From an uncultured Prevotellaceae bacterium (lineage in GTDB: Bacteria; Bacteroidota; Bacteroidia; Bacteroidales; Bacteroidaceae), in NCBI GenBank assembly GCA_902775075.1, contig CACYKX010000064.1:1-14526 (forward strand): a stretch of 14,526 nucleotides of DNA, read 5' to 3'. The notes under the pieces were generated by a model. That model made no database searches. It had not been told where the DNA came from and was given only the letters and a program-made list of their open reading frames with translations. Position 1 is the first letter of the stretch, and the number at the start of each line of letters is the position of its first letter. This document shows, piece after piece, positions 2,332 through 13,890 of this stretch. The position numbers and the translations under genes are program-made.

Positions 2332-3327
2332 TTACAACCAATGATTCTCCTTATACCATTCCATAGACAGATGTACACCTTGCTCCAAGTCATATTGAGG
2401 ATGATATCCGAGTTCATCTACAGCCGGTTCTATATCGCACCGCCAGTTACGTTGTTTCAATATATTATATTTATCATTGTTCAGAGCCGAAATCTTACCT
2501 GTCATTCTACCAATATACTCACCGAAGAAGGTAACCACACGAAGTACCCATACCGGTGCCTTGATGCGAATCCACCAAGGGCATCCAAGTTCTTCGTGTA
2601 TCAAATTACTGAAAGTCTCACTCTGGTATACCTCACCATCGCTCAAGAAATACTTACGCCCATCCTTACCATGGTCTAGTGCTAGGAATACAGCCTGTAC
2701 CACATCCTGAACATACACGAAGGTGATATCCTGGCGTTTGAAACCCACCGAGAAATCTGTATGTTGCTTAATACTCTTCGCCATCAAGAAGTAATCACGC
2801 TCGCGAGGGCCATAGACACCTGTCGGACGAAGCACAATATACGGGAAATTGTTTCCAATAGAATCCAAGAACTTCTCGGCAGCCAGTTTACTCTTACCAT
2901 AAGCCGTATTCGGACGAGGAATATCCCCCTCCGTAATCTCTTGATAAGGTTGCTTTTCCTTGATAGCGCCAAAGATACTCAGAGAACTTAAATAGACAAA
3001 TCTTTTGATTGGAATTTTAAGTTTCAGAATTGCATGAACAAGGTTCTTTGTACCTTCTGTGTTCACACGGAAGAAATCTTCATGATGCAGGCATTTTGTA
3101 ACACCAGCAGCATGAACAATATAATCAAAATCGTGACCCTCCAATTCTTTCAACAGGTCGGTTTCTGATGAGAGATTGAGTTCAATAAAATGTATGCGCT
3201 TATCCTGCAAGTACTTACGAGAGCTAGACTTACGTACCGCTGCCCAGGTCTCCATACCTTGTCGTAAAGCCTCTTCTACGATATAGCTACCGATAAAGCC
3301 GGATGCGCCTGTAATTAGAATTTTCAT
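2332..3327 (-). CDS. NAD(P)-dependent epimerase/dehydratase (extended SDR)
   Basis: A 331-residue extended short-chain dehydrogenase/reductase with an N-terminal Rossmann motif GASGFIG (residues 7-13), HAAGVTK after beta-strand 4, catalytic YLSSLS (about 112-117) and YxxxK at Y143/K147 (AYGKSK), then LRPTGVYGPRERD. The frame is open to 3360, but I chose the ATG at 3327: the Rossmann strand MKILITG begins there, and a -7 promoter box (3357-3349) lies inside the longer version, so those codons would not be transcribed. Substrate is unknown. Relatives act on nucleotide sugars, sterols or, in some bacteria, 3-oxo-ceramides. Pairing with the PAP2 membrane protein 17 bp downstream suggests lipid metabolism. 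Confidence is high for the fold and low for the reaction. Confidence 0.88.
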   Translation of the reverse strand: MKILITGASGFIGSYIVEEALRQGMETWAAVRKSSSRKYLQDKRIHFIELNLSSETDLLKELEGHDFDYIVHAAGVTKCLHHEDFFRVNTEGTKNLVHAILKLKIPIKRFVYLSSLSIFGAIKEKQPYQEITEGDIPRPNTAYGKSKLAAEKFLDSIGNNFPYIVLRPTGVYGPRERDYFLMAKSIKQHTDFSVGFKRQDITFVYVQDVVQAVFLALDHGKDGRKYFLSDGEVYQSETFSNLIHEELGCPWWIRIKAPVWVLRVVTFFGEYIGRMTGKISALNNDKYNILKQRNWRCDIEPAVDELGYHPQYDLEQGVHLSMEWYKENHWL

Positions 3328-3346
3328 TAAAAATAATATAATTCGC

Positions 3347-3377
3347 TTGCAAAGATACAAATATTTTTGTTACTTTG
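3347..3377 (+). promoter_or_regulatory. rnr promoter, overlapping the divergent SDR promoter
   Basis: TTACTTTGC at 3370-3378 is a close variant of the TAnnTTTG -7 box, with TTGC at 3347-3350 at the -33 distance. Start would be near 3383, about 20 nt before the chosen ATG. The -33 block lies on top of the opposing promoter's -7 box, so the two promoters share the same roughly 30 bp. Confidence 0.5.
3349..3357 (-). promoter_or_regulatory. -7 box for the SDR-PAP2 pair
   Basis: The minus strand reads TATCTTTGC, an exact TAnnTTTG. Transcription would begin near 3343, about 16 nt before the ATG at 3327. I see no clear TTTG at -33; that position (about 3378-3381) falls next to the -7 box of the opposite rnr promoter. 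Confidence 0.6.
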
Positions 3378-3404
3378 CCCATAAAATATAAAAAACACAT
3401 ATCT

Positions 3405-5612
3405 ATGGGAAAAGGAAAGAAAGGTGGAAAACGAATGTCGAAGAAACTGTTGAGTGAGAAATTGGAAAATTTCTTCGCATCTCAACCTGGCAAAGTTTTC
3501 TCATTTAAAGAGATATTCAAAGCACTCAAGCTAAACACTCATCCCCTGAAGATGCTTGCCATTGACACCATGGAAGAAATGGCATGGGATGATTTTCTGA
3601 AAAGAGTCAGCGATAACAGTTATCAACTTAACCAGTCTGGTCAGGTACAGAAAGGAACATTTGTTCGTAAGGCGAATGGTAAGAACTCTGTGATTCCTGA
3701 GGGCAGCGACCAACCGATCTTTGTTTCTGAACGTAACTCTATGGGAGCTCTCAGCGGAGATAAGGTAGAATTCACCTTTCTTGCGCGCCGTCGCAATCAT
3801 ATTCGTGAAGCGCAAGTCAACCAAGTACTCCAGCGTGCCAAAGACACTTTTGTCGGTCGCCTGAAGGTAGATAAGGAACTAGCTTATCTGGTAACCCAAG
3901 GTGATACCTTTGCTCACAACATTATCATTCCTAGACGCAAGCTGAAAGGAGGAAAAATGGATGATAAGGCTATCGTGAAGGTCATAGAATGGCCTGACGG
4001 TGAGGTAAAGAGTCCTATCGGTGAGGTTGTGGACATTTTAGGACAAACCGGTGACAACGATGTAGAGATGAACACCATTCTCGCTCAGTATGGTCTACCT
4101 TACAAATATCCAAAGGCTGTAGAGGATGCAGCCAACAAGATTACAGGAGAGATTACCGAACAAGACCTGAAGGAACGTGAAGACTTCCGCGATACATGGA
4201 CTTGTACCATCGACCCGAAGGATGCTAAAGACTTTGATGATGCTTTATCGTTCAAGAAGTTAGATAATGGACTCTATCAGGTAGGTGTTCACATTGCTGA
4301 CGTCAGTCATTATGTGAAAGAAGGCGACATCATCGACCGTGAGGCTCAAAAGCGTGCCACAAGTATCTATCTTGTCGACCGCACCATTCCTATGCTCCCA
4401 GAGCATCTTTGCAACTTTGTATGTAGTCTTCGCCCTAACGAGGAGAAGCTGGCCTTCAGCGTCATCTTCGACTTGAACGAAAACGGTGATGTCAAGAAAT
4501 ATAGAATCGTGCATTGTGTCATCAAGAGCGATCGCCGATATGCTTATGAAGAGGTACAACAGATTCTAGAAGACAATGGTGTGATTGACGGCACCGGCGA
4601 ACCTGCTCCTGCAGCTCCTAAGGAAGGATACAAGGGAGACTATGCCGACAACCTGATTATGCTCGACCGTCTGGCCAAGAAGCTACGTGCCAAGAGATTC
4701 AAAGATGGTTCTGTGAAGTTTGACTCTGAAGAGTTGCACTTTGAAGTTGATGAGAAAGGAAAGCCAATACGCTGTTTCTTCAAACGGTCAAAGGATGCCA
4801 ACAAACTTGTTGAGGAGTTTATGCTTCTTGCCAACAGAACCGTTGCCGAGGATGTTGGTAAGGTGAAGAAAGGTAAAAAGGCTAAGACCCTGCCTTATCG
4901 TATTCACGACAATCCAGACCCTCAGAAGTTGGAAACATTGCGCCAGTTCATCGTGAAGTTCGGTTACAAACTGAAGAGCACCAGTACTATGGGAGCGACG
5001 GCTCGCGCTCTGAACAAACTGATGGACGACTGCGAGGAAAAGCCAGAGCAGAAGATGATCCAAACAGTTGCCCTTAGAGCGATGATGAAGGCGAAATATA
5101 GTGTTCACAACATCGGTCACTTCGGTTTGGCCTTCGAATACTACACCCATTTTACCTCTCCTATCCGAAGATATCCGGATACGATGGTTCATCGTTTGAT
5201 CACCCGTTATCAGCAAGGTGGAAGAAGTGCCAACGAAAAATATTACGAGAAACTTTGCGAACATAGCAGTGACATGGAGTTAATAGCCCAGAGTGCCGAA
5301 CGCGACTCTATAAAATATAAGATGGTAGAGTTTATGGGCGACAAGATAGGCAACGAATATCCTGCTCACATCAGTGGTATCACCAGTTTCGGTATCTATG
5401 CCGAGATTGACGAGAATCATTGTGAAGGTATGATTCCTATGCGTGACCTTGACGACGACTATTATGAGTTCGATGAGCGCAACTTCTGTCTTGTAGGACG
5501 CCGTCACCATCACAAATATCAGCTAGGCGACGCCATCCAGATTAAGGTTGCTAAAGCCAATCTGGAGAAGAAACAACTTGATTTCACAATCACCGAAAAG
5601 AAGAAACGATAA
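3405..5612 (+). CDS. rnr: Ribonuclease R (RNase II/RNB family 3'-5' exoribonuclease)
   Basis: A 735-residue processive exoribonuclease that degrades structured RNA in the cytoplasm. Domain order is typical: a basic N-terminus, a winged-helix region (about residues 14-75, LSEKLENFF to YQLNQ), cold-shock/OB domains (about 80-230), the RNB catalytic domain, and a C-terminal S1 domain (about 650-730, beginning near PAHISGITSFGIYAEI). The metal-binding motif IDPKDAKDFDDA supplies D270, D276, D278 and D279, matching the four catalytic aspartates of the family. The FTSPIRRYPD segment near the end of RNB is also characteristic. The frame extends to a TTG at 3375, but that codon sits inside the promoter -7 box, so I use the ATG at 3405; the ATG at 3435 is another possibility. 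The long lysine-rich tail of enterobacterial RNase R is reduced to TEKKKR. Confidence 0.95.
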   Translation: MGKGKKGGKRMSKKLLSEKLENFFASQPGKVFSFKEIFKALKLNTHPLKMLAIDTMEEMAWDDFLKRVSDNSYQLNQSGQVQKGTFVRKANGKNSVIPEGSDQPIFVSERNSMGALSGDKVEFTFLARRRNHIREAQVNQVLQRAKDTFVGRLKVDKELAYLVTQGDTFAHNIIIPRRKLKGGKMDDKAIVKVIEWPDGEVKSPIGEVVDILGQTGDNDVEMNTILAQYGLPYKYPKAVEDAANKITGEITEQDLKEREDFRDTWTCTIDPKDAKDFDDALSFKKLDNGLYQVGVHIADVSHYVKEGDIIDREAQKRATSIYLVDRTIPMLPEHLCNFVCSLRPNEEKLAFSVIFDLNENGDVKKYRIVHCVIKSDRRYAYEEVQQILEDNGVIDGTGEPAPAAPKEGYKGDYADNLIMLDRLAKKLRAKRFKDGSVKFDSEELHFEVDEKGKPIRCFFKRSKDANKLVEEFMLLANRTVAEDVGKVKKGKKAKTLPYRIHDNPDPQKLETLRQFIVKFGYKLKSTSTMGATARALNKLMDDCEEKPEQKMIQTVALRAMMKAKYSVHNIGHFGLAFEYYTHFTSPIRRYPDTMVHRLITRYQQGGRSANEKYYEKLCEHSSDMELIAQSAERDSIKYKMVEFMGDKIGNEYPAHISGITSFGIYAEIDENHCEGMIPMRDLDDDYYEFDERNFCLVGRRHHHKYQLGDAIQIKVAKANLEKKQLDFTITEKKKR

Positions 5613-5771: not shown

Positions 5772-5779
5772 TACCTTTG
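5772..5779 (+). promoter_or_regulatory. -7 box upstream of the chromate transporter pair
   Basis: TACCTTTG is an exact match to TAnnTTTG. Transcription would start near 5785, leaving a leader of about 50 nt before the ATG at 5834. No obvious -33 TTTG; the upstream DNA is very AT-rich. Confidence 0.55.
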
Positions 5780-5833
5780 TCGCGAAATAAGAATGAGGTA
5801 AAAGACATTGATAACGAAACAAAACAAAGAAAT

Positions 5834-6382
5834 ATGTTATTAAAATTCTTCTTAACCTGTAATAAGATTGGAGCTTTCACCCTAGGAGGAGGATACGCAA
5901 TGATTCCAATCATGGAACAGGAATTCGTAGACAAGAACCATTGGATGGAACGCCAAGAATTCATGGACATCATGGTAGTGGCACAAACCACCCCAGGTAT
6001 ATTTTCAATAGATATGGCCAGCCATATCGGATATAAGATGAAAGGCGTCTGGGGCGGTATCGTCGGTGCTATTGGCATAGCCTTACCTTCTATCATCATG
6101 ATTTTGCTCATTGCCATGTTCTTCCACACTTTCAAGGATAACATTTATGTCACCAAGTTTTTTCGCGGAGCACGTCCTGCAGTAGTGGCTCTCATCGCAG
6201 CACCATGTTTCAAGATGGCCAAGACAGCCAACATCAACCGATACAACTGTTGGATTCCCATCGTCTGCTGTCTGTTGATAGCAGCCATGGGCGTATCACC
6301 AATATGGATTATCATCGCAGCCGGAATATCAGGATTTCTCTATGGCAAATACAAGAGACAGAAAAACAGTATAAAAGACTAA
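5834..6382 (+). CDS. CHR-family (chromate-type) transporter, first half-size subunit
   Basis: A 182-residue hydrophobic membrane protein of the short CHR (ChrA-like) family. The conserved N-terminal motif is GAFTLGGGYAMIP (GGGYAM at 18-23) followed by QTTPG at 51-55, then several hydrophobic stretches (about 68-100, 115-130 and 145-168). Long ChrA proteins are tandem duplications; short ones usually occur as pairs encoded side by side, as here with the next gene 12 bp away. The frame can be extended to a TTG at 5777, but that codon is part of the -7 promoter box, so the ATG at 5834 is preferred. Many family members have never been shown to move chromate, so the substrate is open. Confidence 0.88.
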   Translation: MLLKFFLTCNKIGAFTLGGGYAMIPIMEQEFVDKNHWMERQEFMDIMVVAQTTPGIFSIDMASHIGYKMKGVWGGIVGAIGIALPSIIMILLIAMFFHTFKDNIYVTKFFRGARPAVVALIAAPCFKMAKTANINRYNCWIPIVCCLLIAAMGVSPIWIIIAAGISGFLYGKYKRQKNSIKD

Positions 6383-6394
6383 AAAGCAAGACAG

Positions 6395-6967
6395 ATGTTA
6401 TTCGTAAAAATATTTTGGATATTCTCACAGATCGGCATATTCAACTTTGGTGGTGGTTATGCCATGATCTCCCTTATCTACAACGATGTAGTAGTAAAGA
6501 ACCATTGGCTCACAAGTTCCGAGTTTACCGATATCGTAGCCATCAGTCAGTCCACCCCAGGCCCTATCGGTATCAACGCGGCCACCTATACAGGCTATGT
6601 GGCCGTAGTAAATGCAGGATTCCCTCACTGGGCAGGTATTATAAGTGCTGTTATCGCCTCACTCGCCATTATATGGCTGCCCTTTATCTTGATGATATGT
6701 ATCAGTCATTATCTGTTGAATCATAAAGACTCCCCGATCGTGAAGGATATCTTTGCAGCCCTTCGTCCTGCCATCATCGGACTGATTGCCGCTGCTGCCA
6801 TCATGCTGATGAACAAAGATAACTTTGGCTCACCTCAGGAGGATATGTTCTCCTTCGCCATCAGCATCGCACTCTTTGCCGCAGCCTTCGTTGCCACAAG
6901 ATTCTACAAGGCCAACCCTATCCTTGTACTTGCCCTCTGTGGCATCGTCGGTCTTATCGTCTATTAA
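6395..6967 (+). CDS. CHR-family (chromate-type) transporter, second half-size subunit
   Basis: A 190-residue partner of the preceding gene, beginning 12 bp after its stop codon, so the two are cotranscribed and probably form a heteromer. It repeats the family plan: GIFNFGGGYAMIS (GGGYAM at 19-24), VVVKNHW, and SQSTPGPIGINAATYTGY (about 51-68), which is closer to the canonical PGP motif than the first subunit's TTPGIFS. Hydrophobic segments follow at about residues 70-110, 123-140 and 150-190. The difference in the PGP motif suggests the subunits are not interchangeable. Confidence 0.88.
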   Translation: MLFVKIFWIFSQIGIFNFGGGYAMISLIYNDVVVKNHWLTSSEFTDIVAISQSTPGPIGINAATYTGYVAVVNAGFPHWAGIISAVIASLAIIWLPFILMICISHYLLNHKDSPIVKDIFAALRPAIIGLIAAAAIMLMNKDNFGSPQEDMFSFAISIALFAAAFVATRFYKANPILVLALCGIVGLIVY

Positions 6968-7064: not shown

Positions 7065-7721
7065 ATGAAACTAAAGATATTTTTCTCGCATAAAGAAGAG
7101 CTATGGAACTCATGGAGCCATGCCGGTGGAATTGTACTGGGCATCATTGTCGGTACCATCTTCCTATATTACTGTTTCACCAACAGCAATGGATGGGCAA
7201 CGGCTGGTGTCATCCTATATCTCTTCGGTATGCTCATGTCATACATCGCCTCAACGATCTATCATGCAGTATCAGCATGGAGCAAATGGAAAGAACGACT
7301 GCGCAAATGGGATCATGCAGCGATCTACTGGCATATCGCCGGAAGCTATTCACCCATCACCTTGATAGCCTTGCGCGATGAAGGCTATTGGGGATGGGCA
7401 TTATTCATATTCGTATGGGTGTGCGCCATTGCCGGCACCATCTCCAGTTTCTATAAACTGAAAGGGCACAGCAATCTGGAAACACTAACCTTCGTCGGTA
7501 TGGGTCTGTGCGTGCTCACCGCATTGAAACCACTCCTCGACGCACTTACCACAGCAGCCTTTATCTGGATTGTAGCCGAAGGCGTATGCTATATCACGGG
7601 AGCATTATTCTATAGTCTCCGCAAACGCAAATACATGCATACCGTATTCCATTTCTTTGTTTTGGCAGGAAGCATCTGCCATATCATCGCTGTTTGGGAC
7701 ATTCTGATGCAATATATCTAA
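7065..7721 (+). CDS. trhA: TrhA/hemolysin III-like (PAQR superfamily) membrane protein
   Basis: A 218-residue seven-helix membrane protein of the YqfA/TrhA (hemolysin III) family. Family marks are visible: NSWSHAGG near the N-terminus (H19), SxxxH in STIYH (S63, H67), DHAAIYWHIAGSYSP with D83, and HxxxH in MHTVFHFFVLAGSICH (H192, H196). In PAQR proteins these Ser/His/Asp residues form the intramembrane metal site. The bacterial members are linked to membrane energetics and fluidity homeostasis; the haemolysin name comes from an early assay and does not imply a toxin. An ATG four bases upstream is out of frame and short. It has its own tandem promoters, so it is probably monocistronic. Confidence 0.9.
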   Translation: MKLKIFFSHKEELWNSWSHAGGIVLGIIVGTIFLYYCFTNSNGWATAGVILYLFGMLMSYIASTIYHAVSAWSKWKERLRKWDHAAIYWHIAGSYSPITLIALRDEGYWGWALFIFVWVCAIAGTISSFYKLKGHSNLETLTFVGMGLCVLTALKPLLDALTTAAFIWIVAEGVCYITGALFYSLRKRKYMHTVFHFFVLAGSICHIIAVWDILMQYI

Positions 7722-7730
7722 AAAAGTATA

Positions 7731-7790
7731 CCAAATTATCCCAAACTGAATTATTTTTTACCAAAACGAGAACAATTTTCATTTTTCTCG
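7731..7790 (+). promoter_or_regulatory. Candidate operator: phased CCAAA direct repeats plus a small inverted repeat
   Basis: Three copies of CCAAA start at 7731, 7741 and 7761, each preceded by an AT-rich tetramer (TATA, TATC, TTTA). Spacings of 10 and 20 bp put all copies on the same face of the helix, as expected for AraC-family binding sites. A 6-bp inverted repeat (CGAGAA at 7767-7772 and TTCTCG at 7785-7790) follows. The cluster ends just upstream of the regulator's probable promoter, so it could mediate autoregulation of the regulator-pdxS-pdxT unit. Function is inferred. Confidence 0.4.
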
Positions 7791-7801
7791 ATATTATTTC
7801 C

Positions 7802-7809
7802 TTATTTTG
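7802..7809 (+). promoter_or_regulatory. Probable -7 box of the regulator-pdxST unit
   Basis: TTATTTTGC is a one-base variant of TAnnTTTG, of the same type as the rnr box. It lies only 8 nt before the ATG at 7818, so an mRNA starting from it would have almost no leader. There is no clear -33 TTTG. Confidence 0.35.
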
Positions 7810-7817
7810 CAGTCGTG

Positions 7818-8768
7818 ATGGAAAATAAGAAGGTGATATTGACGATAACCGGTTCCGATAGCACAGGCGAATCAGGTATACAGGCCGATGTGAAAACCAT
7901 ATCGGAACTTGGTGGCAATGCTCTATCGGTGATCACCTCTATCACCATTCAGAACACACTGGGCATTCAAGAGTTCTACGACCTACCGGCAGATGTCATC
8001 GCAGGACAGATAGACGCCATCATGAATGATGTGGCACCAGAAGTGGTAAAGATTGGTATGATTCGCAACCAAAAGGTGCTCGACGTACTCTGCAGAGCTA
8101 TTCTGAAATATCATCCGGCCCAAGTGATCTATCACCCCGTGATATTCTCAGCACGAGGCGAGCAACTTATGAATGAGGATATTCTCACTCTCGTCGGCCG
8201 ACAGTTGTTCCCGTTGTGCGACTGGATTATCATCAAAAGAAAAGATATCGGGTATTTCCATCCCGACGATCAAAGGCATCTGCTTGTCATTGATGAAACA
8301 TTGCCTGTGATGCACGGACAAACCAATGCCTTTGCCTCGGCACTGGCCGCCTATCGCTGTCAAGGTGTCGAACTCCATGAGGCGATAAAGAAAGCCCACG
8401 AATATGTTGTGCAGAAAGCGCTCAGACACAACAATCTACAAGGGCGAAGCAGTGAGCTATATAATGCCTTCATCAACCTCATGCACAAGCATTACCAAAA
8501 GCATAGCGACGTACAGTTCTATGCCGACATGCTGAATGTAAGCAGCAGATACTTGGCTCAGGTGACGCGCCGTGTGTCGGAACAATCCCCTAAGGCTATC
8601 ATCGACGACTATCTGATCAAGAACATCAAGCGACAGCTGCTTACCACACAGAACAACGTGCAACAAATCGCATACGCACTGGGATTCTCTTCTCAGGCTC
8701 ACATGACAAGATATTTTAGAAAACTTACAGGATTAACCCCGAGTAAATTCCGGAAACAAAAGGATTGA
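7818..8768 (+). CDS. ThiD-like pseudokinase fused to an AraC-type HTH domain; probable vitamin B6 regulator
   Basis: A 316-residue two-domain protein. Residues about 6-205 resemble ThiD/pyridoxine kinase: TITGSDSTGESGIQADVKT (11-26 region), SITIQNTLG with Q45 in the position of the ThiD substrate-contacting residue, and VVKIGMI with M81. The ATP side is degraded. About 40 residues are missing between the strand ending DWIIIKRKD and the C-terminal helix compared with ThiD, the TPNxxE segment is replaced by IKRKD, and the anion-hole motif HGTGC reads HGQTN (166-170). Residues about 214-311 are an AraC-type double HTH, with YADMLNVSSRYLAQVTRR as the first and IAYALGFSSQAHMTRYFRKLTGLTPSKFR as the second. 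The ATG at 7818 is preferred over a GTG at 7815; no later start would keep beta-strand 1. pdxS begins 45 bp downstream. I infer a transcription factor that senses a B6 or pyrimidine ligand with a catalytically dead kinase pocket. A functional kinase cannot be fully excluded. Confidence 0.88.
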   Translation: MENKKVILTITGSDSTGESGIQADVKTISELGGNALSVITSITIQNTLGIQEFYDLPADVIAGQIDAIMNDVAPEVVKIGMIRNQKVLDVLCRAILKYHPAQVIYHPVIFSARGEQLMNEDILTLVGRQLFPLCDWIIIKRKDIGYFHPDDQRHLLVIDETLPVMHGQTNAFASALAAYRCQGVELHEAIKKAHEYVVQKALRHNNLQGRSSELYNAFINLMHKHYQKHSDVQFYADMLNVSSRYLAQVTRRVSEQSPKAIIDDYLIKNIKRQLLTTQNNVQQIAYALGFSSQAHMTRYFRKLTGLTPSKFRKQKD

Positions 8769-8813
8769 TCAGTATCAAAGAATTACCTTATTTTAAAGAA
8801 GAAAGATTTTATT

Positions 8814-9689
8814 ATGTCAGAAAACAGACAGACTTTGAACCGCAATTTGGCTCAGATGCTGAAGGGCGGTGTGATTATGGACGTAACCACTCCAGAACAG
8901 GCTCGTATCGCAGAAGAATCAGGTGCCTGTGCAGTAATGGCACTAGAACGCATCCCTGCCGACATTCGTGCAGCAGGTGGCGTATCGCGCATGAGCGACC
9001 CCAAGATGATCAAGGGAATACAAGAGGCTGTAAGTATTCCGGTAATGGCTAAATGCCGCATCGGTCACTTCGCAGAAGCTCAGATTCTGCAAGCCATCGA
9101 GATAGACTATATCGACGAGAGCGAGGTTCTCTCACCAGCAGATGATGTATATCACATCGACAAGACAAAATTTGAAGTACCATTCGTATGTGGTGCCAAG
9201 AACCTGAGTGAGGCTCTCCGCCGAATCGCTGAGGGGGCCACGATGATTCGTACCAAGGGCGAGCCGGGCACAGGCGATGTCGTACAGGCCGTGAAGCACA
9301 TGAGGATGATGCAGAGTCAGATTCGCGACATCGTAAGCAAGAGTGAAGACGAGCTCTACGAAGCTGCCAAACAGTTGCAGGCGCCTTACGACTTGGTGAA
9401 ATATGTTCACGACCATGGCAAACTACCGGTAGTCAACTTTGCAGCCGGTGGTGTAGCAACCCCTGCCGACGCAGCGCTGATGATGCAGTTGGGTGCAGAA
9501 GGTGTCTTCGTGGGCAGCGGTATCTTCAAGAGCGGCAACCCACGCAAGCGTGCCACAGCCATCGTACAGGCTGTAACCAACTACAACGACCCTAAGATAC
9601 TAGCCGAGATCAGTGAAGACTTAGGTGAGGCCATGGTGGGCATCAACGAGCAAGAGATAGAACTACTGATGGCTGAACGTGGTAAATAA
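8814..9689 (+). CDS. pdxS: Pyridoxal 5'-phosphate synthase, PdxS lyase subunit
   Basis: A 291-residue (beta/alpha)8 enzyme that makes PLP from ribose 5-phosphate, glyceraldehyde 3-phosphate and the ammonia delivered by PdxT. The sequence is highly conserved: [13 protein letters not shown] with D23, [22 protein letters not shown] with K80 (Schiff-base lysine), EVLSPADD, and [11 protein letters not shown] with K148 (the swinging lysine), then [32 protein letters not shown] with the phosphate-binding glycines. Length is normal. An A/G-rich stretch (AAAGAAGAAAG, about 8795-8805) precedes the ATG. It follows the ThiD-AraC gene by 45 bp with no recognisable promoter in the gap, and pdxT starts 11 bp after it, so all three genes are probably one transcript. 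Confidence 0.98.
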
Positions 9690-9700
9690 TATCGTAGAAG

Positions 9701-10273
9701 ATGATGAGAATAGCGGTATTAGCTTTACAAGGTGCCTTTGCTGAGCATCGCAAGATGCTCTGCAACTTGGGCATAGACAGTTTTGAAATCAGACAACGAT
9801 CTGATTGGGATGAGCATAAAGACGGACTCATCATCCCGGGCGGTGAGAGTACGACGCAACTGAAACTGCTGAAGGATTTGGAACTGTTGAAGCCCATACA
9901 GGAAGATATCCGGAAAGGACTTCCTGTGTTTGGAACCTGTGCGGGATTGATTCTGCTGGCGAAAGATGTAGAGGGTGAGGATTTTGAAAGGATCTCAACC
10001 ATGGACATCCACGTGAAGAGGAATGCCTACGGCAGACAGATGGGTAGCTTCTATACCGAAGACAACTTCCGAGAAATAGGAAAGGTGCCCATGACTTTCA
10101 TCAGAGCACCTTATATCATGAGAGGAGAACCTCATGTCGACATCCTTGCCGAAACAGGCGGACATATCGTCGCTGCGCAACAGGGAAACCAACTGGTCAC
10201 TTCATTCCATCCGGAACTGAATGATGACCCGAGAATTCACCAATACTTCATCAATATGATCACAAAACAGTAA
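9701..10273 (+). CDS. pdxT: Pyridoxal 5'-phosphate synthase, PdxT glutaminase subunit
   Basis: A 190-residue class I glutamine amidotransferase that hydrolyses glutamine and channels ammonia to PdxS in the 12+12 PLP synthase complex. Seen: VLALQGAFAEH at the N-terminus, IIPGGEST (oxyanion region, 44-51), nucleophile C80 in FGTCAGLILLA, and the H170/E172 pair in SFHPEL, completing the triad. It starts with ATGATG at 9701; either codon could be used. The last 14 bp, including the stop, overlap the end of the convergent GH3 gene, leaving no room for a separate terminator. Confidence 0.97.
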   Translation: MMRIAVLALQGAFAEHRKMLCNLGIDSFEIRQRSDWDEHKDGLIIPGGESTTQLKLLKDLELLKPIQEDIRKGLPVFGTCAGLILLAKDVEGEDFERISTMDIHVKRNAYGRQMGSFYTEDNFREIGKVPMTFIRAPYIMRGEPHVDILAETGGHIVAAQQGNQLVTSFHPELNDDPRIHQYFINMITKQ

Positions 10274-12524
10274 TCGTAGACTTCCTGAGATTCCGATCAT
10301 CACTGTCAGGGCCCACCATCACCTCTATTTCTCCTGGGTCGATGACATGATTCAAATCGGCATCGTAATATTTCAGGAGTTCCGGTGTAATCTCGAAACT
10401 TACTTGAGTGCTTTCGCCTGCCTTCAGATGAATACGGCGGAAGCCTTTAAGTTCTTTGACAGGACGAGCCACACGGGCTGCTGGGTCGTGAGTGTACATC
10501 TGTACGATCTCATCACCATCGCGACTGCCCGTGTTGGTCACGGTAACAGTAGCCGTGAGCCTACCGTCACGCCCGAGGGTTTTACCGCTCAAGGTGATGT
10601 CACTATAAGAGAAGGTGGTGTAAGACAGGCCATAACCGAAAGGATAGAGAGGGTCATTTCTTACATCGATATAGTTGCTCTGGAATTTCTGATATTCCTT
10701 GACACGCGGCGCAACAGGGCGACCGGTATTCAGATGATTGTAATACAAAGGAATCTGTCCCAGCGACTGAGGGAATGTCGTCGTCAACTTGCCCGATGGC
10801 ATCTGGTCGCCGAAGAGAACATCACTGATGGCATCACCAGCCTCACTGCCGGCAAACCATACATTCATGATGGCAGGAACATGCTCACTCTCCCACTTCA
10901 TGATGGTAGGGCGACCCGAGAAGTTCAACAACACCAACGGTTTGCCCAAAGCTACAAGTTTCTGAAGCAGTTGCATCTGTACATCCGGTAAAGCAAGGTC
11001 AGAGCGACTAGAACTCTCACCGCTCATCTCTGCCATCTCACCCATAGCACACACGATAACATCAGCGCGCTGAGCCAACTGCAAAGCCTCCTTCTGAGCC
11101 TCCGCATCATTCACACGGGGTATCGGGCGACCGAAAGTAGCCCCTTTCTGAGTGGTCTCATCAGCATATATATTACAACCCTGTGCATATTCCACGACAG
11201 CCTTACCCTTCACCGCACGTTGCATAGCCTCTTTCAGAGTACTGTATTTCTCCGGAATATCACCGGTAGACCAGCAGCCCACCATATTACTACGATTGTC
11301 ACCAAGAGGGCCGATCAAGGCAATCTTGCCCTTCTTCTGCAAAGGAAGGATATGATCATCATTCTTCAACAAGACGAAAGTCTCTGCAGCCAACTGACGT
11401 GCAGCAGCACGATTCTCGGCAGTATAAAGATCTTTCTGCAGACGCTTCTTATCAATGAAACGATATGGGTCTTTGAACAAACCCAACTTATATTTTGCTT
11501 CGAGAACCTTACGGCATGCACGGTCGATATCAGCCTGAGAGACGGTGCCGGACTTCAAGCATTTCTCCAAATTCTCTATGAACGCATTGCTGCACATATC
11601 CATATCAGTACCAGCCTTCAGAGCGAGCGCAGAACAAGTCATCTGGTCGCCCAGTCCATGACTCGTCATCTCCTTGATAGAACCATAGTCGGTCACCACA
11701 AAGCCATCATATTTCCACTGGTTGCGCAGCACATCCGTGACAAGCCACTTATTGGCAGTGGCAGGGATACCGTCTACGAGATTGAAGCTCGTCATAAAAG
11801 AGCCGGCTCCAGCCTCGGCAGCAGCCTTATAACCTGCGAAATACTGATTATACATACGCACCTTACTCATGTCCACGGTATTATAGTCGCGACCGGCCTC
11901 AATAGCGCCATAAAGCGCATAATGCTTCACACACGCCATCACGTTCTCCTTACCATAATTACCCTGCAAGCCTTTCACCATAGCCTGAGCGATACAAGCG
12001 CCGAGGAACGGATCTTCGCCATTGCCCTCGGCAATACGTCCCCAACGAGGATCTAGGGCAATATCCACCATCGGACTGTATGCCCAGTTGATTCCTAAGG
12101 CCGTAGCCTCCTTGGCAGCGATGCGGGCACTGTTCTCGATAGCAGCGATATCCCAGCTACATGATAATGCCAAAGGAATAGGAAAGACGGTTTGATAACC
12201 GTGGATGACATCCTGACCGAAGATCAGAGGAATACCAAGACGACTCTTCTTGACAGCGACCTCCTGCAAGGCACGAATCTTGTCGAGCCCCTTGACATTG
12301 AGCACCGCACCAAGTTCGCCTTTAGCCGTAAGTTCGCCCAAAGGACTTTTCATGACAGCTCCCGTAGTGATGTCGTTACCAGGAAGCAAATTCAACTGTC
12401 CTATTTTCTCTTGCAAGGTCATCTTCTGCATCAGTTTGTCGATATACTGGTTCATATCCGACTGCGCAAAGATACCTGTACACACGGCTATAAAAACCGA
12501 AGTTAATAACAAGCGTTTTTTCAT
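10260..12524 (-). CDS. bglX: Glycoside hydrolase family 3 beta-glucosidase (BglX type), secreted or periplasmic
   Basis: A 754-residue exported GH3 enzyme that releases glucose (or a related sugar) from beta-linked oligosaccharide ends. The N-terminus MKKRLLLTSVFIAVCTGIFA-QSD is a Sec signal peptide, probably cut after A20; there is no lipobox cysteine at the cleavage site. The (beta/alpha)8 domain (about 25-370) contains GQDVIHGY, CVKHYALYGA (the KHF-like motif) and GFVVTDYGSI, with nucleophile D279. The alpha/beta sandwich domain carries MGEMAEMSGESSSR, where E503 is the likely acid/base. A C-terminal fibronectin III-like domain follows (about 650-754, VTVTNTGSRDGDEIVQMY). Length equals that of E. 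coli BglX. No SusC/SusD genes or other polysaccharide-utilisation genes adjoin it, so it appears to stand alone. The specific linkage cannot be read from sequence. Confidence 0.95.
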   Translation of the reverse strand: MKKRLLLTSVFIAVCTGIFAQSDMNQYIDKLMQKMTLQEKIGQLNLLPGNDITTGAVMKSPLGELTAKGELGAVLNVKGLDKIRALQEVAVKKSRLGIPLIFGQDVIHGYQTVFPIPLALSCSWDIAAIENSARIAAKEATALGINWAYSPMVDIALDPRWGRIAEGNGEDPFLGACIAQAMVKGLQGNYGKENVMACVKHYALYGAIEAGRDYNTVDMSKVRMYNQYFAGYKAAAEAGAGSFMTSFNLVDGIPATANKWLVTDVLRNQWKYDGFVVTDYGSIKEMTSHGLGDQMTCSALALKAGTDMDMCSNAFIENLEKCLKSGTVSQADIDRACRKVLEAKYKLGLFKDPYRFIDKKRLQKDLYTAENRAAARQLAAETFVLLKNDDHILPLQKKGKIALIGPLGDNRSNMVGCWSTGDIPEKYSTLKEAMQRAVKGKAVVEYAQGCNIYADETTQKGATFGRPIPRVNDAEAQKEALQLAQRADVIVCAMGEMAEMSGESSSRSDLALPDVQMQLLQKLVALGKPLVLLNFSGRPTIMKWESEHVPAIMNVWFAGSEAGDAISDVLFGDQMPSGKLTTTFPQSLGQIPLYYNHLNTGRPVAPRVKEYQKFQSNYIDVRNDPLYPFGYGLSYTTFSYSDITLSGKTLGRDGRLTATVTVTNTGSRDGDEIVQMYTHDPAARVARPVKELKGFRRIHLKAGESTQVSFEITPELLKYYDADLNHVIDPGEIEVMVGPDSDDRNLRKSTITVL

Positions 12525-12657: not shown

Positions 12658-12747
12658 TGAGACTATTTTAGATATCGCTCTCGAAAATGAACGAGGATAA
12701 CCATCTTTTTGTGGAAAAAATTGTTTCTTAAAGATATTAGAATAAAT

Positions 12748-13890
12748 ATGAAATATCACTCTATTGTTGAACAATCGGAGGAAGGTCTTACTCTCATTTG
12801 CAAAAAAGCTGAGGAGTTTGAAAGAGATAGTATTTTGCCTGCTATTCAGGATAAAAGATTCAACGAGTATGATATCGAACAACTCATTATCGATGTGGAA
12901 GAATATCATGCCAAACTGAAACGGGAAATTCTGTCTGTAAACAATTTTGCTAGAACTTTCAATAGCCAATATGCTACAGATAACAATCTTTGCTTTGAAA
13001 CCGCTGAACGGTTGTTTCGCAAAATTAGGAGTACGCTTTGTGGCACAAAGAAAATCTATCGCAAGTTTTGCCTTCGGGTCAACAGGAAAACTCCTAAGGA
13101 TGCTTCTATCTTCTCTCATTCCGCTATCGCTTGCGGCAACTATAGTTTTGACTTGTATGGCGAGGATTCTTATCCGGAATGTGTCAAAAAACTTTGTGAC
13201 GAAATGGAGGCTTTCTTCGAGGATTTGATCATGATCATTCGATTCTGCCAGAGGGTCATCCGTGAGGAGGAAATGATAAGAAACAATCCGACGGAACTGA
13301 AACAAATCTATATCGATGATTGTAATCATACGAGACGGCAACAGGAGATGTATATCCGTATGTTGAGGGAAGATAAGAACTGTGAACCTACCAAAGACCC
13401 TATGGATTTCAATGGTTCCGAAAATCTTTCTTTTCAGAATTTCCTCAAGTCGGCTTTCCATAAATATAATAGAAATCAGTTTGTGCTCCACGTCGTAAGC
13501 GATGAACTGAAAAAGGGAAGAATGCATGGACTAGACCGTGAGGAATCGATGTTATGGGCTGATAATCACGACATTGTGCCTAAGGTAAGAATCGTGCTGG
13601 AGCATTTCGACGAACTCGACCCTCAGGGAAGCATGGACAGGAACAGAGGCGTGAGAAAGATAAACAGCAAGGTGATGGTGCGACTCATGAAATGGTGCGG
13701 ACTGGAGAATAGTGGCCATGAGAAGAATTTCATCGAGGGATATTTTGTAGAGCACTATCATGGGATGTATCTTCCTGTAAAAATGCCTGCCGTGAATACG
13801 GCCAAGAGGAATCTTACTGTCCATGGTGACCCTGAATATGAACATTTTGAGAGTTTGGTGAATGAGCTATTGAGGAAATATCATAATTAG
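12748..13890 (+). CDS. Hypothetical protein of unrecognised family, soluble, 380 residues
   Basis: I do not recognise this family. It is a hydrophilic, charged, mostly helical protein without signal peptide or membrane segments. The N-terminal half (about 1-200) is rich in Glu/Lys heptad-like stretches (SEEGLTLICKKAEEFERDS, VEEYHAKLKREI, DEMEAFFEDLIMIIRFCQRVIREEEM) that suggest long helices or coiled coil. A linker (about 215-240, CEPTKDPMDFNGSENLSF) leads to a C-terminal part with a compact basic region (MDRNRGVRKINSKVMVRLMKW, about 297-317) and an H-rich stretch FVEHYHGMYLP. Several cysteines are spread out, but no metal-binding pairs are obvious. The frame extends to a TTG at 12709, but the ATG at 12748 is the first normal start. 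It has its own exact -7 box and is followed by a good terminator, so it is probably monocistronic. No function is proposed. Confidence 0.75.
   Translation: MKYHSIVEQSEEGLTLICKKAEEFERDSILPAIQDKRFNEYDIEQLIIDVEEYHAKLKREILSVNNFARTFNSQYATDNNLCFETAERLFRKIRSTLCGTKKIYRKFCLRVNRKTPKDASIFSHSAIACGNYSFDLYGEDSYPECVKKLCDEMEAFFEDLIMIIRFCQRVIREEEMIRNNPTELKQIYIDDCNHTRRQQEMYIRMLREDKNCEPTKDPMDFNGSENLSFQNFLKSAFHKYNRNQFVLHVVSDELKKGRMHGLDREESMLWADNHDIVPKVRIVLEHFDELDPQGSMDRNRGVRKINSKVMVRLMKWCGLENSGHEKNFIEGYFVEHYHGMYLPVKMPAVNTAKRNLTVHGDPEYEHFESLVNELLRKYHN

Follow-up and report, generated by a model that had tools for sequence, protein, structure and literature searches.

We analysed a 14,526-nt stretch of DNA (hereafter, the window; contig CACYKX010000064.1 of the GenBank assembly GCA_902775075.1) from an uncultured Prevotellaceae bacterium, in which a gene encoding a ThiD-derived pseudokinase fused to an AraC-type helix-turn-helix (HTH) domain directly precedes pdxS and pdxT, the genes for the two subunits of pyridoxal 5'-phosphate (PLP) synthase. 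Taken as a whole, the evidence suggests that the fusion protein is probably a dedicated regulator of this enzyme, in which a ThiD-type sensor is coupled to an AraC-type output and vitamin B6 provides the feedback. The parts of this proposal differ in strength: judging from genome comparisons, the fusion very likely regulates pdxS directly, whereas the nature of its ligand, a B6 vitamer, and its action as an activator are each likely. The corresponding genes and domains are located as follows.

7818..8768, forward strand: fusion gene (ThiD-derived pseudokinase plus AraC-type HTH), 316 amino acids (aa), with the ATG start at 7818 and the TGA stop at 8766-8768
7818..8438, forward strand: kinase-derived sensor domain, residues 1-207
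8520..8759, forward strand: AraC-type double HTH, residues 235-314 (PF12833, E = 5.2e-23; PF00165, E = 2.4e-11)
8814..9689, forward strand: pdxS, encoding the lyase subunit of PLP synthase, predicted to be targeted by the fusion and to share its operon (512.7 bits; cut-off, 395)
9701..10273, forward strand: pdxT, PLP synthase glutaminase subunit (224 bits; cut-off, 105.55)

The original prediction for this locus had described a fusion of a ThiD-like domain and an AraC double HTH, encoded 45 bp ahead of pdxS-pdxT, and both the Pfam domains and the coordinates agree with it. The Phos_pyr_kin profile matches the protein with an E-value of 4.3e-42 in two stretches, the best of which covers residues 14-137, the C-terminal double HTH scores above the Pfam cut-off (PF12833, HTH_18; 81.6 bits vs 33.6), and the gap between the stop codon of the fusion and the start of pdxS is 45 bp; an alternative start of the fusion open reading frame (ORF) is the GTG at 7815. 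The window protein is matched by 2261 proteins at E <= 0.001, and both domain types are present in all 120 matches listed, with 51%-99% identity to the window protein. The ThiD-AraC fusion is a genus-wide family, more than a product of chance.

Association of the fusion with pdxS was examined in a genus sample of 200 genomes and a family sample of 201 genomes, with three genomes common to both (G419, G541 and G001, the genome nearest to the window); the genomes are related, so that the counts given here are not independent events. In the genus sample, PdxS (PF01680) is encoded in 92 genomes, and the fusion is present in 87 of these compared to none of the other 108. In the family sample, among the matches listed, from which a weakly scoring split fusion could escape, the fusion occurs in 33 of the 40 pdxS genomes, representing five genera, and in none of the 161 others. 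When the window protein is used as the query at E <= 1e-40, the fusion is found in 70 genus genomes, all of which encode pdxS, and in 68 of the 70 it precedes pdxS in the same orientation on a shared contig, with 64 of these 68 pairs being within ~700 bp of each other and the median gap between matches amounting to 66 bp (Fisher p = 9e-35 with the genomes treated as independent, which they are not). The remaining 22 pdxS genomes of the genus include 17 with a more diverged fusion and five without any. A profile search matched 109 of the 200 genus genomes, namely the 87 with fusions, together with 22 others that gave only matches of ThiD length and lack pdxS throughout. Across 395 genomes of the phylum, a full-length match at 1e-25 was obtained only in G001. 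Among 80 loci from named records, 21 contain the fusion, including those of Hoylesella marshii DSM 16973 and Xylanibacter ruminicola D31d, and pdxS is present on the examined stretch in 17 of them, the exceptions being L181, L185, L188 and L195 (Palleniella muris); in G520, the fusion and pdxS reside on separate contigs. These results show pdxS, not thiamin genes, to be the partner of the fusion, so that the refuting condition named in the original prediction, homologues lying mostly beside thiamin genes, fails. In one family genome, G785 (L274, L275), pdxS is present twice, and each copy is directly preceded by a fusion of its own.

An expectation-maximization motif search in 80 non-redundant 220-bp regions upstream of fusion genes yielded the 28-bp motif tgaagTTTt.tTTgTCAaaA..gGAACa. 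In its wider form, the consensus consists of two direct repeats, TTTGTACAAA and TTTGTCAAAA: the identity of the downstream 18-mer to the segment 21 bp upstream is 0.469 compared to ~0.27 by composition, the top value among 26 offsets (47 sequences). Within the window, the predicted operator and the promoter element are positioned as follows.

7747..7774, forward strand: predicted operator (28-bp motif), score 19.0, the best in the whole window; next best, 6.9
7736..7753, forward strand: predicted half-site R1, 21 bp upstream of R2, with 10 of 18 bases identical
7757..7774, forward strand: predicted half-site R2, ending 31 nt before the TTTG of the -7 element
7802..7812, forward strand: -7-type promoter element TTATTTTGCAG, with TTTG at 7806-7809, an imperfect match to TAnnTTTG

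The sequence TAnnTTTG is given as the -7 consensus of this phylum (PMC7366714). Among the 60 upstream rows scoring at least 9, with the window and G001 both counted, a TTTG[CTA] box is located 31-32 nt behind the site in 57; of the other three, one has the box at 33 nt, and two were cut at the tail by the chosen start and give 31 nt on recomputation. The predicted direct-repeat operator is conserved and goes beyond what the original prediction had claimed. A known riboswitch was rejected, since no Rfam family matches the window at the gathering threshold, and so was a sigma-70 consensus promoter, with 5 hits vs 5.2 expected. A search of 40 genomes with the pattern TTTRTCANNANNSGAAC, which is too strict for the site of G001 itself, returned few other matches and no obvious common second target, the neighbours of the matches not having been examined.

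Comparison of upstream regions strongly supports the view that the predicted operator tracks the promoter of pdxS, not the regulator gene. Regions were scored for the site and the box within 450 bp; in 300 shuffles, the 95% level is -6.6, the 99% level is -0.1 and the maximum is 2.5, whereas for 384 genomic 450-mers, with many of the source loci not from Bacteroidota, the 99% level is -2.1 and the maximum is 6.6. The test set consisted of 21 pdxS genes of fusion genomes (15 from the genus and six from the family sample) in which pdxS is separated from the fusion, divergent from or convergent with it, or has a gene in between. Because only upstreams of fusion genes were used for training, the upstreams of these pdxS genes are independent of the motif, except for the shared region in G580. 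All 21 score above the 95% level, 17 above the 99% level, 12 above every shuffle and 10 above all 384 genomic pieces, with the top scores obtained for G771 (17.5), G512 (16.2), where pdxS is ~500 kb away from the fusion, G757 (15.4), G588 and G493 (14.7 each) and G754 (14.5). Of the 15 genus test genomes, just two, G493 and G580, in the latter of which the genes diverge, have a passing score upstream of the fusion itself; in G771 the upstream of the fusion scores -18.0. None of the 12 pdxS genes from fusion-less genomes scores above -0.1; without the box rule, fusion-less G616 reaches 4.0, approximately the corresponding 95% level of 3.9. Scoring of the same regions on the reverse strand gave a single high value, 9.9, which equals that of the divergent fusion promoter of G580, and the next is -3.3. 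Of the 72 remaining fusions in the genus sample, 57 have a passing score in their own upstream, two more do so after start-codon correction (G398, G497), six pass directly upstream of pdxS instead and G407 and G508 are added upstream of pdxS, for a total of 67 of 72 that rests on two looks, upstream of the fusion and then, for the failures, upstream of pdxS. Among the family genomes with adjacent genes, both fusions of G785 pass upstream (15.4 and 8.1), with no pass before pdxS, the fusion of G780 scores 19.5, and the pdxS upstreams of G614, G639 and G695 have passing scores (0.9-2.1). Given the tie between the fusion and pdxS, and the predicted operator in the promoter serving pdxS, the comparative support for regulation of pdxS is strong. 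It is very unlikely that the operator belongs to a different regulator, with the fusion being a mere bystander in the pdxST operon: although other AraC-type proteins are present in these genomes (for example, in G581), the site occurs together with the fusion, even where the latter is far from pdxS, and not in the 12 fusion-less pdxS genomes, and direct repeats 21 bp apart fit an AraC-type dimer. A separate arrangement is found in L155 (G440), where the fusion is separated from pdxS by an ORF at 2648-3952 that looks ATPase-like by eye, and pdxS has a predicted operator of its own with a score of 9.4.

The kinase from which the sensor derives is almost certainly retired in the window protein, as suggested by an alignment of 87 fusions of one genus, a few of them near-identical, with seven standalone ThiDs of the same genus. 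The relevant positions are the following.

7851..7889, forward strand: substrate-side motif GSDSTGESGIQAD, residues 12-24, with G12, D14, Q22 and D24 kept in 87/87 fusions
7950..7952, forward strand: codon of Q45, the substrate-side Gln of ThiD; Q in 84/87 fusions
8058..8060, forward strand: codon of M81; M in 51 and L in 36 of the 87 fusions
8313..8327, forward strand: degenerate GTGC motif HGQTN, residues 166-170, with Asn replacing the catalytic Cys

The catalytic Cys (position 170) is found in none of the 87 fusions, its place being taken by N in 61, G in 17, S in eight and A in one; the HG of the motif and G80 are kept in all 87, and K78 in 86. The HGTGC motif is intact in 7/7 aligned standalone ThiDs and, by pattern, in 17 of 18, the first pattern match in the 18th being another stretch. 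In the fusion of G556, a Cys stands one place before the catalytic position of ThiD, and the fusions of L181, L185 and L188, with no pdxS on the stretch examined, represent a sub-type, HG-R/H-CNE, with the Cys likewise one place earlier than in ThiD. The stretch from residue 138 to the GTGC motif comprises 24 aa in the window protein vs 54-76 aa in the seven ThiDs (68-69 in five of them), so that ~44 residues are missing; in the fusions, this part of the nucleotide lobe spans 65-72 aa in 22 and 4-39 aa in 65. The original prediction had pointed to GSDSTGESGIQAD, Q45 and M81, all of which are present in the window protein, had estimated that about 40 residues of the nucleotide part were absent and that GTGC read GQTN, close to what is found here, and had considered the kinase retired, with which the lack of the catalytic Cys throughout the aligned fusions is in agreement. 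In a FastTree phylogeny, all 87 fusions group in a single clade opposite ThiD (support 0.93), the root state is full-length, and parsimony places two changes, the second one at weakly supported nodes. Loss of the catalytic residue thus preceded that of the lobe, which took place one or more times, perhaps twice. A working hydroxymethylpyrimidine (HMP) or pyridoxal kinase with an incidental HTH, that is, a trigger enzyme, is extremely unlikely: some sources do name homologues hydroxymethylpyrimidine/phosphomethylpyrimidine kinase, and 22 of the 87 relatives keep a full-length lobe, but the loss of the Cys in 87/87, for which a working ThiD was rejected, the reduction of the lobe to 24 aa in the window protein and its failure to reach the cut-off of the NCBIfam ThiD profile (TIGR00097; 138.6 bits vs 204.95) all speak against activity.

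We propose that the sensor is a ThiD-type vitamin kinase that has lost its catalytic residue and kept its ring-binding pocket. A dimer of the fusion would occupy both direct repeats, which are spaced by 21 bp and of which the downstream one is beside the -33 position of the promoter serving pdxS, and would activate pdxST and, in most genomes, the fusion itself as the first gene of the operon. A B6 vitamer, PLP being the likeliest and otherwise pyridoxal or pyridoxine, would bind in the old pocket and end activation, resulting in feedback on PLP synthesis. Activation is suggested by the position of the downstream repeat, which ends just upstream of -33 at a near-fixed spacing to the -7 box. AraC-type activators bind there, beside the polymerase, as established for AraC. 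Repression of pdxS by a B6 regulator appears unlikely; the sign of regulation is unreadable from sequence, but the site is clear of the -7 box and the start site, and the repeat ends 31-32 nt before TTTG, as for an AraC-type activator. Two considerations favour PLP as the ligand of the proposed activator: the regulated enzyme produces it, and there is a crystal structure of a ThiD homologue in complex with PLP, going by the title of the entry (4ywr). A more specific scenario, which is somewhat doubtful, is that PLP synthase of a large bacterial lineage is governed by a pseudokinase sensing PLP itself, with this product lodged in the old pocket, with its phosphate pointing towards the disarmed HG-x-x-N loop, with no need for ATP, and with the lobe deleted once or more after the loss of catalysis. 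If this is true, living relatives preserve the steps from a full-length dead kinase to a minimal vitamin sensor.

Besides the relatedness of the genomes, several observations weigh against B6-responsive control of pdxS by the fusion. Twelve pdxS genomes lack the fusion (G488, G504, G532, G542 and G563 in the genus sample; G352, G616, G641, G729, G742, G756 and G784 in the family sample), and pdxS of one of these 12, G641 (-3.6), passes the 95% level. In the separated group, pdxS of G455, G580, G649 and G740 score under the 99% level; G411, where the fusion adjoins pdxS, is devoid of the site-plus-box; G416, G466, G506 and G553 are under the 99% level at both genes; G768, a family genome with adjacent genes, fails (-3.0); and one of the 18 upstreams of standalone thiD scores 4.2, above -0.1. 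As to the ligand, the sensor scores higher with the ThiD profile (138.6 bits) than with ThiD2/PdxK (64.6 bits), and the Gln45 of ThiD kept in the pocket is compatible with HMP-type ligands. Both features, along with a structural model of the fusion that matches the HMP-bound structure 1jxi, would also suit a regulator of pdxS that binds a thiamin precursor, be it HMP, its phosphate (HMP-P) or diphosphate (HMP-PP), and mediates cross-talk from B1 to B6. We consider such a ligand improbable in view of the thiamine genes. In a PF08543 search of 34 genomes, G001, G513, G411, G456, G471 and G517 were found to encode the fusion without a standalone ThiD. Of 12 genomes tested for ThiC, it is missing from just these six; ThiC and ThiD are both encoded in the remaining six (in G527, ThiD is in two pieces). 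A second, ThiD-type match at 1e-35 is missing in 57 of the 87 fusion genomes, some of which are incomplete and in most of which no more than the best 10 candidates were scored, and 17 of the 18 standalone thiD upstreams are under the 99% level. The absence of ThiC and standalone ThiD from the genome nearest to the window argues against a thiamine role, and a thiamine regulator was rejected on the grounds of the missing ThiC and ThiD in fusion genomes and the scores upstream of standalone thiD.

The predicted operator is reminiscent, in repeat spacing and placement, of the I1-I2 site of AraC, in which direct repeats lie 21 bp apart and the downstream one is beside the upstream element of the promoter; AraC differs in that its sensor is an unrelated sugar-binding fold and the promoter is of another type. 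ThiR is reportedly an archaeal regulator in which a thiamine phosphate synthase domain serves to control thiamine genes, similar to the fusion in the reuse of a vitamin enzyme domain and different in the domain of life, the enzyme domain and the target genes. With ThiD (TIGR00097, PF08543), the fusion shares the fold and the substrate-side residues, but in the window protein the Cys and most of the nucleotide lobe are gone, an HTH has been added, and the partner is pdxS. As regards the use of a retired kinase for sensing, the nearest parallel is BzdR, in which a former shikimate kinase domain is described as the effector-binding domain of a transcription regulator, albeit with an N-terminal XRE HTH, benzoyl-CoA as the ligand, a function in benzoate catabolism and another kinase fold (PMC3602430); the Pfam domains of the window protein do not include the BzdR-type combination of an XRE HTH and a shikimate kinase-like domain. 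PLP regulators are described as MocR-type proteins, in which a GntR HTH is joined to an aminotransferase fold, and, in the cases quoted in the same source, the apo form of PdxR/MocR activates pdxST and PLP opposes this (PMC5320631). PdxR and the fusion are thus alike in the control of pdxST, predicted for the fusion, and in a sensor originating from a PLP-related enzyme fold (PMC5320631), but the fusion has a ThiD (ribokinase) fold, an AraC HTH and another operator; a MocR-type PdxR was rejected, since the window protein shows only Phos_pyr_kin, HTH_18 and HTH_AraC. Two papers on B6 genes (PMC9997740, PMC6593275) name PdxR as the regulator, and AraC is not mentioned in the main text of either. 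No description of a ThiD-AraC regulator was found in text searches of a library of open-licence papers, which is not proof of novelty.

Elsewhere in the window, positions 5777-6382 and 6395-6967 (forward strand) hold an adjacent pair of half-size chromate transporter-family genes (PF02417), and a large ORF at 10260-12524 (reverse strand), convergent with pdxT and overlapping it by 14 bp, resembles by eye a secreted glycoside hydrolase. The 393-aa ORF at 12709-13890 (forward strand) is not matched by any Pfam or NCBIfam profile at E <= 0.001. A plasmid-borne locus was rejected, with no near match to 7700-10300 in the plasmid collection.

The fusion is found in Prevotella-type gut and rumen bacteria, where it very probably controls the vitamin B6 synthesis genes, a role obscured by the usual labelling of the protein as a thiamine enzyme. 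Several records (P0003-P0006, P0009, P0094 and others) bear the name hydroxymethylpyrimidine/phosphomethylpyrimidine kinase, though 87/87 related fusions are without the catalytic Cys, and fusions named in this way can lend genomes devoid of ThiC or ThiD a seeming capacity for thiamine-precursor salvage. With the relatives forming a graded series, the transition from enzyme to sensor is directly testable. If the proposal is true, part of the Bacteroidota has its own vitamin B6 regulator, unrelated to PdxR and equipped with a sharp, testable operator.
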